In this document: one piece after another, positions 43,878 through 55,983 of the stretch
Layout of the letters: each line of letters opens with the position of its first letter
Numbering within the stretch: the first letter of the stretch is position 1
Assembly: GCA_024690485.1 (NCBI GenBank)
Contig: JAILPB010000109.1
Location: 1-57,641 of the forward strand
Direction: 5' to 3'
Origin: Butyrivibrio sp.
Lineage (GTDB): Bacteria; Bacillota; Clostridia; Lachnospirales; Lachnospiraceae
Length of the DNA: 57,641 bases
Made by a program: the position numbers and the translations under genes
Notes under the pieces: generated by a model
Database searches by the model: none
The model's input: only the letters and a program-made list of their open reading frames with translations
Told to the model about the DNA's origin: nothing

Positions 43878-44708
43878 TCAGTTTACTTCTTCCTTGCCGT
43901 GCTCTCTTGCAAGGATGTATATTCTCTCGCTGTCCTCTGCAGGTTCTCCGTGGGTATCCGCATCAATAGCTGTTATAAAAAGCATTCCCGCTTCTTCCAC
44001 AAATTCCTTCATCTGCTCTAAGGTGTAGCCCCTCTGAAGGTGAGTTTCGATAGAGCGCTCAAAGAGGTCTTTACTGGAATCATCCTTACATTTTACAAAA
44101 ATTGTAAGGTCATATTCATTGATATCCGTATCCACATCATAGAAATTTTCCCAGATAAAACTGCAATCATCGCGGTTTTCAGCTATTGTCACATCTCCTA
44201 TGACGTCCTTGTATTTGTGCTTCGTATTAAAATCAAAAAGAAACAGTCCTCCGGGATACAGATAGTTATTAACCAGCGTAAATGCTTTCCTTATCTGCTC
44301 ATCCTCAATTAGATAATTTATACTGTCGCAGACGCTGACTATGGTTCCCGCTGTGCAGAAGAGATCAAGCTCGCACATATCCTGCTCAAGGTACATGATA
44401 TCAAGGCCTGACTCCTCCTTCTTTTTCCTTGCTATTCCAAGCATATCTCCGGAGTTATCTACGCCCACCATATCGTAGCCAAGACCAGCCATCTCCTCTG
44501 TAAAACTTCCAGTGCCGCAGCCAAGCTCAACCACAAGGTTTTTTTCCTGCAGCAGAGGATCCTTATCTTCAGATGAATCCTCCTTGTCGTAGGGCTTTGA
44601 AATACCGTAGTCTCCAATCAGCTGGGATATAAATTCTGCCCACTGTTTATATGGAGTCTCATCCATAAATTCATCATAAACTTTTGCAAAGTCTGTATAC
44701 TGTTCCAT
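43878..44708 (-). CDS. Class I SAM-dependent methyltransferase
   Basis: This 276-residue protein has the SAM-binding motif I LVVELGCGTGSFTEEMA, motif II GYDMVGVDNSGDML, and a later acidic loop (EQDMCELDLFCTAGTIVSVC). The N-terminus (FAKVYDEFMDETPYKQWAEF) fits the group of small-molecule methyltransferases of Firmicutes with a TehB-like C-terminal half. Substrate unknown. It lies 52 bp upstream of nadE on the same strand and may be co-transcribed with it. A -10 box is at 44756-44761. Confidence 0.88.
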   Translation of the reverse strand: MEQYTDFAKVYDEFMDETPYKQWAEFISQLIGDYGISKPYDKEDSSEDKDPLLQEKNLVVELGCGTGSFTEEMAGLGYDMVGVDNSGDMLGIARKKKEESGLDIMYLEQDMCELDLFCTAGTIVSVCDSINYLIEDEQIRKAFTLVNNYLYPGGLFLFDFNTKHKYKDVIGDVTIAENRDDCSFIWENFYDVDTDINEYDLTIFVKCKDDSSKDLFERSIETHLQRGYTLEQMKEFVEEAGMLFITAIDADTHGEPAEDSERIYILAREHGKEEVN

Positions 44709-44761: not shown

Positions 44762-44795
44762 CAACAAAATCAGCATGTGCACCTTGCAGAGCGTT

Positions 44796-44828
44796 TTTTA
44801 TTTGATAGGATTTTCCTATCAAATAAAA
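44796..44828. other. Perfect 15-bp hairpin upstream of the methyltransferase gene
   Basis: The arms TTTTATTTGATAGGA and TCCTATCAAATAAAA are exact complements with a 3-nt loop. It is AT-rich with T/A tracts on both sides, so it could terminate in either direction. It belongs to a dense run of hairpins filling 44796-44984. Confidence 0.6.
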
Positions 44829-44857
44829 ATGAGGCACTACAAAATCTGTAATGCCTC
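44824..44857 (-). terminator. Terminator-like hairpin downstream of the small exporter gene
   Basis: GAGGCATTACA and TGTAGTGCCTC (44831-44857, minus strand) pair with one G-U and are followed by ATTTTTATTTG. This is the best candidate terminator for the gene ending at 45042. Confidence 0.65.
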
Positions 44858-44868
44858 ATGTTCTATAC

Positions 44869-44984
44869 ATTTTTGAATCAAAGATTCAAAAATGCCGCAA
44901 ACAAGCCATCCTAGAGCGACTACGTCGCGGGCTTGTTTGCCTCTAGTATCATGTTCTCACGAAACCCGCAGAAAATGCGGGTTT
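44869..44984. repeat. Structured intergenic element, copy A
   Basis: The plus-strand order is as follows. Hairpin 1 (11-bp stem, 3-nt loop, 44869-44893), then a 3-nt linker. Outer arm GCAAACAAGCC (44897-44907), ATCCTA (44908-44913), and a 5-bp inner hairpin with TAC loop (44916-44928). One G, closing arm GGCTTGTTTGC (44930-44940), and a 9-nt spacer. CATGTTCTCACG (44950-44961), then hairpin 3 (9-bp stem, 44962-44984). The same order with different stem sequences occurs at 54959-55061. The active strand is unknown. Confidence 0.7.
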
Positions 44985-45041
44985 CTGCATGAACGTTCAA
45001 GAAGTCATACAACCATTAACCTATACCGGTTACCTGGCCTA

Positions 45042-45536
45042 TCAGCCTTTGATTCCGGCGATTGCTCCAAATCCAAGGAAGCTTGCAAGACCGATGATCG
45101 TGCCTGCAAGGGCAATTCCGCCGATTACTGCAAGAACGCTCTTCTTAAAGTCCATATCAAGGATACTTGCAGCAAGTGTTCCTGTCCATGCGCCTGTTCC
45201 GGGAACAGGGATTCCAACGAACAGTAAAAGTGCAACATAGAGGCCGCGTCCAGCCTTCTCCTGAAGCTTCATGCCACCCTTTTCACCCTTCTCAAGACAG
45301 AACGTGAAGAACTTGCCGATAACAGGCTTATCCTTACCCCACTCAAGTACTTTTCTTGCGAAGAAAAAGATAAAAGGCATAGGAACCATATTACCTATTG
45401 CAATAACGATATATGCAAGAAGGAGATTGAACTCCGGATTGTTAGTATGTATATAATGAGCGATCGGAATAGCTCCTCTAAGTTCAACAAGGGGAACCAT
45501 GCTCCACAAAAATACGACTATAAAATTTTTCAGCAT
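45042..45536 (-). CDS. Putative small multidrug export protein (Sm_multidrug_ex family)
   Basis: This 164-residue protein has four hydrophobic segments. It opens with MLKNFIVVFLWSMVPLVELRGAIPIA, whose PxxELRGAIP motif marks the COG2426/Sm_multidrug_ex family. GIPVPGTGAWTGTLAASIL follows, and then two C-terminal helices. The export role is only a family label; no substrate is proven. The gene lies after hisC on the same strand but behind a strong terminator. Confidence 0.85.
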   Translation of the reverse strand: MLKNFIVVFLWSMVPLVELRGAIPIAHYIHTNNPEFNLLLAYIVIAIGNMVPMPFIFFFARKVLEWGKDKPVIGKFFTFCLEKGEKGGMKLQEKAGRGLYVALLLFVGIPVPGTGAWTGTLAASILDMDFKKSVLAVIGGIALAGTIIGLASFLGFGAIAGIKG

Positions 45537-53792: not shown

Positions 53793-54860
53793 TTACTCGT
53801 AAATCTTAGCCTTCTCTTCACCGTTCATAACACGAAGTGCACCCTGTGCAAGAGCAAGAAGCTCGTCCTCACCGGGATATACTGTTACAGGTGCGATAAA
53901 GCCTACGCGTTCTGTGATAGCGTCTGTGATTACTTTTCCATACGCAATACCACCTGTAAGGATGATTGTGTCTACCTTACCCTTAAGAACTGTTGCAGAA
54001 GCACCGATGTTCTTACAGATCTGATAGATAAATGCATCACGAACAAGGATTGCCTTCTCGTCGCCATCTTCACACATCTTGTTAATTGTTCTCATGTCGT
54101 TGCAGCCAAGATAAGCATTGAATCCGCCGCCGCCGACAATCTTCTTTTTCATCTCTTCGTATGTGTACTTACCTGAGAAGCACATATCTACAAGAGCAAG
54201 TGCAGGAACACCGTTCGTTCTCTCAGGTGAAAATGCACCGTCGCCGTTAAGGGCTGCAAATACGTCAATCATCTTACCGTTCTTGTGAACACCACAGGAT
54301 GTACCACCACCCATGTGTACAACGATAACATTGACATCTTCATATTTCTTACCATTCTCTTTAGCATAGCGTCTTGCAACTGCCTTCTGGTTAAGAGGAT
54401 GGTCGATTGATACTCTCTCGATCTCCGGAATACCTGAAATACGTGCAACAGGCTCCATCTCATCTACTACAACGGGATCAACGATGTAGCTCTTTACACC
54501 GATTTCATCAGCAATCTCTCTTGCAAGGATACCGCCGAGGTTTGATGCGTGCTGTCCCTGAACACCCTTGTGAAGGTCTGCAAGAAGAGCATCTGTACAC
54601 TCATAAGTGCCACCCGGAATGGGCTTTAAGAGTCCGCCTCTACCAACGATAACGTCGAAAGACTTGATATCGATGTTTTCTTTTTTAAGGAAATCAAGAA
54701 TGATGTTCTTTCTGAAATCCTTCTGATCTATGATACTTGCGTACTGGTTGATCTCCTCAGTACTGTGTCTTAAAGTTTCTTCCTTTGTAAGAGTTTCATC
54801 CTCAAAGATACCTACCTTTGTTGATGTTGAACCGGGATTGATAATTAAACTTTTGATCAT
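53793..54860 (-). CDS. buk: Butyrate kinase
   Basis: This 355-residue protein makes ATP and butyrate from butyryl phosphate. The acetate/butyrate kinase fold shows LIINPGSTSTKVGIF, VGRGGLLKPIPGGTYEC, HASNLGGILAREIA, VHMGGGTSCGVHKNG and ILTGGIAYG. Length and motifs fit Buk rather than acetate kinase (about 400). AAAGGAGA precedes the ATG. It lies 205 bp after ptb on the same strand; in most butyrate producers the two are nearly adjacent. A structured repeat fills the gap. Confidence 0.95.
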   Translation of the reverse strand: MIKSLIINPGSTSTKVGIFEDETLTKEETLRHSTEEINQYASIIDQKDFRKNIILDFLKKENIDIKSFDVIVGRGGLLKPIPGGTYECTDALLADLHKGVQGQHASNLGGILAREIADEIGVKSYIVDPVVVDEMEPVARISGIPEIERVSIDHPLNQKAVARRYAKENGKKYEDVNVIVVHMGGGTSCGVHKNGKMIDVFAALNGDGAFSPERTNGVPALALVDMCFSGKYTYEEMKKKIVGGGGFNAYLGCNDMRTINKMCEDGDEKAILVRDAFIYQICKNIGASATVLKGKVDTIILTGGIAYGKVITDAITERVGFIAPVTVYPGEDELLALAQGALRVMNGEEKAKIYE

Positions 54861-54937: not shown

Positions 54938-54962
54938 TTATAAGTTCTTCTCCTCAGCTACT
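54938..54962 (-). repeat. Duplicated 3' end of ptb, downstream copy
   Basis: This segment repeats the ptb coding end at 55066-55090. The 18 bp 54945-54962 are identical to 55073-55090. On the minus strand both read A-E-E-K-N-L-stop, but with different codons for the last residues (AAC TTA TAA here, AAT CTT TAA in ptb). It lies on the far side of the structured element. Confidence 0.75.
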
Positions 54963-55061
54963 CACTTCGTGAGTACTTGCTTTGCGCATCCTAAATTGCT
55001 TCGCAATGGCGCAAAGCTTGTTTTTCATAATCTCACGCAGTTGTCAGCATGTGCCAACTGC
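54959..55061. repeat. Structured intergenic element, copy B (between ptb and buk)
   Basis: The order is the same as copy A. Hairpin 1 TACTCAC-TTC-GTGAGTA (54959-54975), then a 3-nt linker. Outer arm GCTTTGCGC (54979-54987), ATCCTA (54988-54993), and inner hairpin ATTGC-TTC-GCAAT (54995-55007). One G, closing arm GCGCAAAGC (55009-55017), and an 8-nt spacer. CATAATCTCACG (55026-55037) and hairpin 3 with GCAGTTG/CAACTGC arms (55037-55061). Stems differ from copy A but pair perfectly. Confidence 0.7.
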
Positions 55062-55065
55062 TGAG

Positions 55066-55983
55066 TTAAAGATTCTTCTCCTCAGCTACTACTGCTGCAA
55101 GTGCAATAGAGTTGAGCTTAACCTCAACAGAGTCAGAACGTGATGTAAGGATTACAGGAGCCTTTGTACCTGTAAGGATGTTACCGTTCTTAACTGTTGC
55201 AAGACGAACGATTGTCTTGTATGTAAGGTTACCTGCGTGGATGTCAGGGAAAAGAAGAATATCAGCATCACCGACAATCTTACGGTCCTTGGCACCAGCC
55301 TTGTGCTCAGCAGCAGAAGGATCGATAGCAAGGTCCATTGAAAGAGGTCCGTCTACGATACAATTCTTGATCTCACCAGCCTCGTTGAGACGTGTAAGCT
55401 CAGCAGCCTCTACTGTTACAGGCATCTTGTCGTTAACTACTTCTACAGCTGCAAGAGGAGCAACCTTAGGGCACTCAACGCCACAAGCTCTGGCTACGTT
55501 AACCGTGTACTCAATGATAACCTTCTTATCCTCAAGTGTAGGATAAGGCATGAAAGCAACGTCTGTAAGGAAAAGAAGACGATCAATGCCGGGAATCTCA
55601 AATACGCAAACGTGTGAAAGAGGACGACCTGTACGAAGTCCAACTTCCTTATTAAGAACTGACTTTAAGAATGTCTTGGAATCAAGCTGACCCTTCATAT
55701 AAATATCAGCCTTGCCATCATGTACAAGCTGTACAGCAGTTGTTGCAGCTTCTACCGTATCCTTTACATCGATGATCTCGAACTGTGAAAGATCCATTCC
55801 CATACCTGCAGCGATCTTCTCAATCTCATCCTTGTCTCCTACAAGAATTGCATCTGCAATGCCGCGCTCCTTAGCAAGTTTAACTGCCTCAAGAACAGGC
55901 TCATCCTGTGCACATGCTACAGCAAGCTTCTTTGTGCTGGCTGTCTTAAGCTTTGCAAGGATTTCATCGAAACTCTTACTCAT
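55066..55983 (-). CDS. ptb: Phosphate butyryltransferase
   Basis: This 305-residue protein converts butyryl-CoA and phosphate to butyryl phosphate, the substrate of Buk. The PTA/PTB family shows AILVGDKDEIEKIAAGMGMD, ADIYMKGQLDSKTFLKSVLN, VGLRTGRPLSHVCVFEIPG, DGPLSMDLAIDPSAAEHKAG and DILLFPDIHAGNLTYKTI. AGGAGG precedes the ATG. The last codons (AEEKNL-stop) are duplicated 128 bp downstream past a structured element. Confidence 0.95.
   Translation of the reverse strand: MSKSFDEILAKLKTASTKKLAVACAQDEPVLEAVKLAKERGIADAILVGDKDEIEKIAAGMGMDLSQFEIIDVKDTVEAATTAVQLVHDGKADIYMKGQLDSKTFLKSVLNKEVGLRTGRPLSHVCVFEIPGIDRLLFLTDVAFMPYPTLEDKKVIIEYTVNVARACGVECPKVAPLAAVEVVNDKMPVTVEAAELTRLNEAGEIKNCIVDGPLSMDLAIDPSAAEHKAGAKDRKIVGDADILLFPDIHAGNLTYKTIVRLATVKNGNILTGTKAPVILTSRSDSVEVKLNSIALAAVVAEEKNL

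Follow-up and report, generated by a model that had tools for sequence, protein, structure and literature searches.

In a 57,641-nucleotide stretch of Butyrivibrio DNA, which we call the window, two structured sequences (copies A and B) very probably represent a family of mobile structured repeats. The family is apparently undescribed, its members are small, and its hosts are Lachnospiraceae, which are abundant gut and rumen bacteria. It is rather more probable than otherwise, in our judgement, that the family is non-autonomous and works as an intercistronic mRNA element inside operons, and it is likely that the minus-strand form is the one that is transcribed and relevant.

An initial annotation of the window had given both copies a common architecture (three hairpins, ATCCTA, a 5-bp inner hairpin, a single G, a spacer and a motif), and every one of these items is present in the sequence. 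In copy A, the second hairpin has an 11-bp outer stem (44897-44907/44930-44940) with ATCCTA on its 5' side, and a 5-bp inner stem (44916-44920/44924-44928) with a 3-nt loop, followed by one G. The folding energy is -51.2 kcal/mol (z -7.35) for copy A and -39.0 kcal/mol (z -3.89) for copy B, with none of 200 shuffles as stable in either case. Two details of the annotation need correction. ATCCTA is not fixed, as relatives carry ATTCCA, ATTTAAA and others, and the span given to the element, 44869-44984, is too short. The sequence CATnnTCTCACG has seven mismatch-free occurrences in the genome, with the core architecture in four of the seven (copies A and B and one copy each on contigs C66 and C81). 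The C66 copy lacks hairpin 1; over 123 bases it has 97.6% identity with copy A, and it runs past hairpin 3 to ...AAGAAGTCATAC, a tail common to copy A, so that the unit reaches 45010.

Table. Features of the two copies, their neighbourhood in the window, and solo copies in other loci
Feature	Position in window, or locus	Strand	Basis or remark
Copy A, whole mobile unit, ATTTTTGAATC...GTCATAC	44869..45010	- (strand transcribed by neighbouring co-directional genes)	ends from 97.6% identical copy, relatives, tandem copies and empty sites of the same end type
Possible target tetranucleotide (ATAC) on the left of copy A	44865..44868	+	ATAC/ATGC in 15/26 type i copies; same or one-base variant at three empty sites
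Copy A hairpin 1 (P1), end sequence plus its own inverted copy	44868..44894	-	arms 44868-44879/44883-44894, 12 bp, loop AAA
Copy A hairpin 2 (P2)	44897..44940	-	one-sided bulge; minus-strand C(GNA)G triloop
Copy A conserved single-stranded linker with CATGTTCTCACG (minus strand CGTGAGAACATG)	44941..44961	-	column counts; CATGTTCTCACG at 44950-44961
Copy A hairpin 3 (P3)	44961..44985	-	arms 44961-44970/44976-44985
Copy B	54959..55066 (about)	-	P1 54959-54975; core 54976-55066; element order as in copy A
Direct repeat (18 bp) flanking copy B, left copy	54945..54962	.	sequence
Direct repeat (18 bp) flanking copy B, right copy, within ptb 3' end	55073..55090	.	sequence
Gene upstream of copy A in reading direction (Pfam Sm_multidrug_ex)	45042..45536	-	stop codon to element, 31 bases
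Methyltransferase-domain gene, downstream of copy A in reading direction	43878..44708	-	domain assignment
ptb, phosphate butyryltransferase gene	55066..55983	-	TIGR02706 above cut-off; stop codon touches copy B
buk, butyrate kinase gene, downstream of copy B	53793..54860	-	TIGR02707 above cut-off
Solo copy, purM/purN	L226		
Solo copy, sufC/sufB	L232		
Solo copy, rpoA/rplQ	L233		
Solo copy, ftsK/formate-THF ligase (fhs)	L234, L244		two genomes
Solo copy, flaG/fliD	L238		
Solo copy, rimI/ribonuclease Z	L239		
Solo copy, atpF/atpH	L243, L055		two genomes
Solo copy, hydrogenase pair	L047		
Solo copy, mreB/flagellar rod gene	L065		
Solo copies, neighbour relation less clear	L229, L054, L053, L227		

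Some local features of the two sites deserve mention in their own right. A perfect 16-bp AT-rich inverted repeat with a loop of 3 lies near copy A at 44795-44829, beside a terminator-like hairpin at 44829-44859. The 18-bp repeats at copy B duplicate the 3' end of the upstream coding sequence, and where the two versions differ beyond the 18 bases the amino acids are unchanged. A relative at L052 (1350-1750, minus strand) also has flanking direct repeats, exact over 26 bp and about 36 bp long with one mismatch, and there too the 3' end of the upstream coding sequence is duplicated. Long flanking repeats that a neighbouring copy does not explain were seen in 2 of 238 copies, and shuffled flank pairings gave long matches now and then as well. 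Given where copy B lies, genes of the terminal butyrate pathway may have a mobile RNA element between them.

The stems remain paired although their sequences change, as the initial annotation had proposed from two copies. Across 118 aligned copies (104 distinct), double changes occur at 25 of 26 base pairs; 94.1% of cells are paired, against a shuffled mean of 67.1%, and the covariation score is 0.614, against 0.147 for shuffled alignments and at most 0.084 for slid structures, in an alignment that was fitted to the structure and hence favours the pairing and covariation scores. Between lineages the stem sequences have little in common. In the linker, counting back from its ACG end, C at -12, A at -11 and T at -8, -7 and -5 are kept in 70-72 of 80 copies, the invariance of ACG itself being uninformative because the search required it. 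A conserved pseudoknot between bulge and spacer was considered and set aside: 8 of 9 bases pair in copy A, but several relatives lack it by eye.

Read on the minus strand, 64 of the 71 P2 loops that have three bases are GNA triloops, with a closing C-G pair in 61, and P3 has tandem G-A pairs between its covarying stems in 13 of 84 non-redundant copies. Since GNA loops and G-A pairs also form stably in DNA, they indicate the strand rather than RNA over DNA. Among 1069 stem cells (42 non-redundant rows) there are 6 G-U, 8 A-C and 76 other mismatches, whereas 28 tRNAs of the same loci have G-U at 40 of 602 pairs, drawn by ARAGORN, which gives standard and G-U pairs only. G-U is about ten times rarer in the element's stems than in tRNA stems: these are almost pure Watson-Crick palindromes, which is unusual for an RNA kept by selection alone and suggests that hairpin upkeep at the DNA level has a part in maintaining them. 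The claim that the two copies show selection on structure is therefore upheld as regards stem covariation, which is strong, and weakened by the near absence of G-U pairs, which fits palindrome upkeep in DNA as well. The attempt to read the strand from G-U versus A-C counts was uninformative (6 versus 8 in the 42 non-redundant rows, 15 versus 31 in all 118).

How large is the family? The covariance-model search that the initial annotation had recommended was run with two models, R1 (P2, linker and P3, from 22 copies including A and B) and R2 (118 copies), and it found many more covarying copies in Lachnospiraceae. Searching the window with the 22-copy model returns copy A (E 2e-22) and copy B (E 5e-13), and two other matches, one on the back of copy A hairpin 3 (E 0.07) and one at chance level (E 3.3). 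Under R2 the source genome has 11 matches, which include copies A and B. A nucleotide search with 44869-45008 as query matched 14 of 41 genomes, all of them Butyrivibrio and some with many copies; R1 matched 19 of the same number, namely 19 of 25 Butyrivibrio and none of 16 genomes from other families of the order. In one genome R1 counts at least 105 copies, all 105 scored candidates having matched. When one genome per genus was surveyed with R2, with 27 candidates scored per genome, 25 of 160 Lachnospiraceae genomes had matches (the source genome included), several with 15-25 each; class-wide, R2 matched 3 of 196 genomes, all three Butyrivibrio. The annotation had held that a lack of further copies with covarying stems would speak against it, and the 19 Butyrivibrio genomes and 25 genera answer that point. 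A linker pattern scan of named genomes gave at least 119 stretches, with Butyrivibrio in every title among the matches listed; note that our sample of loci is biased towards one linker, many loci having come from a single exact pattern.

At the gathering score, no Rfam 15 family matches the element, whether in the window or in the loci of 17 relatives, and around copy A there are sub-threshold matches only. Among the matches listed, the accessible literature on Butyrivibrio or Lachnospiraceae repeats, MITEs, structured RNA or the end sequence gave no description of the family, although it may figure as an unnamed motif in the supplementary tables of RNA-motif surveys. In the accessible portion of the B. 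proteoclasticus genome paper (PMC2914790) such a repeat goes unmentioned, and 'Clostridi-', 'Butyrivibrio' and 'Lachnospir-' are absent from the main text of a 2024 review of prokaryotic MITEs (PMC10969869). The covariance models can serve to annotate such repeats, of which a genome may hold 100 copies or more.

The ends of the element tell of its mobility. We label them types i, ii and iii for the present analysis, having assigned them by loose patterns. Type ii elements run from GTTACTGTTCA to TGAACAGTAAC and have 8-bp direct repeats outside. Among 50 fetched copies with the core motif and both 11-base ends exact (a GTAAC variant being allowed), the repeat is exact over 8 bp in 42, one base off in seven and three bases off in one. 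By genome, it is exact in 19 of 22 distinct, nearly identical copies with both ends exact in G020 (a count that leaves out five loci without an element with both ends exact and takes an element under two ids once) and in 11 of 12 copies in G012. Copies were also fetched from other genera, 67 in all, and by a loose rule 48 of these carry type ii-like sequence at both ends; repeats are exact in 19 of the 48 and have one mismatch in 12, compared with exact repeats in 2.8% of shuffled pairings. At 130-148 bp, with no protein, terminal inverted repeats and a target duplication, type ii has the general features of a bacterial MITE. Mini-derivatives of 51-54 bp from one genome, with type ii ends and little core, have 8-bp repeats in the three compared (two exact, one 7/8), so most of the core is not needed for type ii movement.

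Copy A is of type i, ATTCTTGAATC...GTCATRC, often located after ATRC and with an imperfect inverted repeat; the left tetranucleotide is ATAC or ATGC in 15 of 26 copies. Querying the joined flanks of ten G012 copies in a related genome revealed three empty sites (L101, L115, L141), whose length equals left plus right flank, i.e. without duplication, and all three have ATAC/ATGC or a one-base variant, the parse of type i empty sites being ambiguous by a few bases. Another copy (L185) has an occupied orthologous site in the related genome, and the remaining six gave no informative junction. Non-autonomous elements of the IS200/IS605 type and REP/BIME have hairpins near both ends, insert 3' of a short motif and produce no duplication. 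Such insertion is what the three empty sites among the ten type i copies display, and at these three testable sites the end type of copy A is consistent with insertion 3' of ATRC and no duplication. A TA target duplication was rejected for type i, given that a scan of 26 copies found no clear duplication and the three empty sites exceed the length expected from a TA model. Type iii ends begin with TATAGATTTTTGTCA. The same core is found on type i and type ii ends, and tandem copies of the element occur.

What might move these elements? Searches for end pairs in G012, G020, G146 (among the matches listed), G174 and G043 brought up no transposase gene with matching ends. Neither did two transposase families, each searched in 8 genomes; Y1 transposases matched in 7 of 8 genomes, and a pattern scan of 30 loci showed none with matching hairpin ends. 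Individual candidates fared no better. IS66 was dismissed as the source of GTTACTGTTCA since IS66 has no match in the genome that holds 200 such ends, and none of these ends is seen at the two best-matching IS66 loci; GTTACTGTTCA end pairs 0.9-2.5 kb apart enclose what look by eye like ordinary genes; and a Y1 gene near one G007 copy has neighbours that suggest part of a separate IS605-like element. Movement would be in trans, by transposases of other elements.

Several further observations concern the ends and their surroundings. Genome G146 has 200 exact copies of GTTACTGTTCA, some in mini-elements of ~50 bp made of the ends and part of P3 (e.g. L409, L410, L411). Solo GTTACTGTTCA end hairpins without a core stand before a DnaC-like gene (L194) and before a phosphoribosyl pyrophosphokinase-like gene (L270), both named by eye. 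At L044 and at the L115 insertion site, the copy occupies the middle of a host palindrome, one such palindrome being the empty site GATTGTATACAATC. In G041 (C103, C76, C132 and others) a second dispersed repeat has many occurrences, and parts of it flank two G012 copies. Rfam matches to Clostridiales-1 RNA and the ZTP riboswitch (L115 639-838 and L116 5087-5170, both minus) share their loci with two copies. Hairpin 1 had been suspected of being inverted host sequence at L004 and L053; at L004 it is explained by an ordinary end of the ATGATATCTTG kind (cf. L098), and at L053 it may be such a sequence.

The transcribed role rests on placement and orientation. Of the 237 distinct Butyrivibrio copies, 182 entered the count; 53 were dropped for lying too close to the end of a sequence and 2 for lying within ORFs. 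With flanking genes called by a longest-ORF rule, 140 of the 182 have co-directional neighbours, which read the minus-strand form in 104 cases and the plus-strand form in 36; another 25 copies have divergent and 17 have convergent neighbours. The minus-strand form is thus the one read in 104 of 140 co-directional placements (binomial p 7.6e-9). By end type the bias is 41/57 for type i, 34/43 for type ii, 8/16, i.e. none, for type iii, and 21/24 for solo copies, meaning copies with no recognised ends, some of which are possibly decayed type i. The 62 classified copies from other genera show less bias (26 of 39 co-directional placements, with 19 divergent and 4 convergent). Type iii and these other genera argue against the intercistronic reading. 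Replication direction is not an obvious cause of the orientation, GC skew being followed in 7 of 18 convergent or divergent copies, a small sample.

Both window copies follow the prevailing arrangement, copy A lying between two co-directional minus-strand genes and copy B separating ptb from buk. For antisense solo copies the median distance is 17 nt from the preceding stop codon and 30 nt to the following start codon. The neighbours of solo copies, as named by family search, are in many cases operon partners (see Table). By eye, the P1 loop contains a Shine-Dalgarno-like stretch in four solo copies (two before atpH, one before purN and one before sufB), which would suit translational gating. 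The initial annotation had offered a noncoding RNA, a regulatory leader and a mobile element as options. Mobility is borne out by 8-bp target duplications and empty sites; a transcribed role is backed by orientation and position, but is putative and concerns the strand opposite to the one described.

For most co-directional Butyrivibrio copies, the order predicted in the mRNA is gene 1 stop - P3 - CGUGAGAAnAUGA linker - P2 - P1 - gene 2 start. We propose that P3 shields the 3' end of the upstream message, that the open linker offers a site for an endonuclease or a protein, and that P2 and P1 protect the downstream message at its 5' end or gate it there, so that the element would set the ratio of the two cistrons, in a way similar to what is reported of ERIC. 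Copies without recognised mobile ends would be those kept by the host. We advance a specific post-transcriptional mechanism of this kind tentatively, at somewhat less than even confidence. A broader and slightly more doubtful version holds that the core is a self-spreading intercistronic RNA module that, carried on at least two unrelated kinds of mobile end, seeded Lachnospiraceae operons and sets the ratios of neighbouring products, hosts having retained copies in atp, suf, pur, rpoA-rplQ and ptb-buk.

Much of this evidence can also be read in terms of a purely selfish element, whose core serves transposition or copy maintenance through ssDNA hairpins, cruciforms, or the binding of a transposase or host factor. 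Hairpin correction in DNA would keep the stems perfect, and the orientation bias would reflect the less harmful way to lie in an operon. The scarcity of G-U pairs, which counts against an RNA kept by selection alone, is to be expected under such a model; the make-up of P1 from end sequence and its inverted copy, the GNA loops, the many near-identical recent copies, and the absence of bias in type iii together with its weakness in other genera all agree with it. If the core existed to promote transposition, however, the three 51-54-bp GTTACTGTTCA-ended derivatives would be hard to understand, as the core seems dispensable for that movement. Nor would we expect the same core to be kept on unrelated ends, or solo cores to stand at the same operon junction in two genomes. 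On balance, we regard the purely selfish account as rather unlikely.

Two other models fare considerably worse. An orientation-specific transcription attenuator or terminator behind genes would explain the close spacing after stop codons and the stable hairpins, and the inner P2 hairpin of copy A does pass a loose terminator scan on the plus strand. Hairpin 3 of copy A fails that scan on both strands, however, and on neither has the form of an intrinsic terminator, a GC-rich hairpin with a T run behind it; downstream of copy A, the transcribed strand has a distinct terminator-like hairpin that does carry a T run (44859-44829); and full termination would be costly inside the atp, suf, pur and rpoA-rplQ operons, where copies reside. 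We therefore judge this model improbable. Less credible still, to the point of being very improbable, is a ligand-binding riboswitch or trans-acting small RNA that was mobilised by chance: a conserved unpaired linker and bulge among covarying helices would be in keeping with it, but the named neighbour genes have no common pathway, Rfam has no match at the element, and one genome holds at least 105 copies.

If the intercistronic reading is true, essential operons would widely have gained new post-transcriptional control from a mobile element. With one core on two insertion modes, and the same junction occupied by core copies in more than one species, it becomes possible to test directly whether such an element is parasite or regulator.

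Insertion of ERIC, an enterobacterial repeat, duplicates TA. Also known as IRU, ERIC is a 127-bp non-autonomous repeat with strong hairpins that is co-transcribed with its neighbours and, depending on orientation, destabilises upstream mRNA, according to the part of the source available to us (PMC2229807). By analogy, it is the nearest worked example for the mechanism we propose: the present element, too, is a small non-autonomous repeat with strong hairpins, and is probably co-transcribed. The likeness considered is one of description, and the hosts belong to another group; ERIC ends carry TA, again from that portion (PMC2229807), whereas the present element has an 8-bp duplication or none. 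The BOX, RUP and SPRITE repeats of Streptococcus pneumoniae are likewise small, structured, partly modular and able to be co-transcribed, but they are over-represented between convergent genes (PMC3049150, as far as the text available goes), whereas the present element is mostly found between co-directional genes in one orientation. The bcr1-bcr18 repeats of the Bacillus cereus group, some of them MITE-like, lie in UTRs and intergenic parts of operons and have conserved RNA structure in some cases; they have other hosts, and a single core on several end types, as found here, goes unmentioned in the accessible part of that account (PMC3446304). YPAL/RU-2 of Yersinia contains inverted repeats, duplicates 3 to 26 bp of its target and has targets near dyad symmetry (PMC2229807, same portion); its duplications recall copy B and L052, but core and ends differ, and long flanking repeats are confined here to the two copies in 238 noted above. 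As to insertion, copy A's end type resembles elements of the IS200/IS605 type and REP/BIME, whereas the other end type has DDE-like 8-bp duplications.
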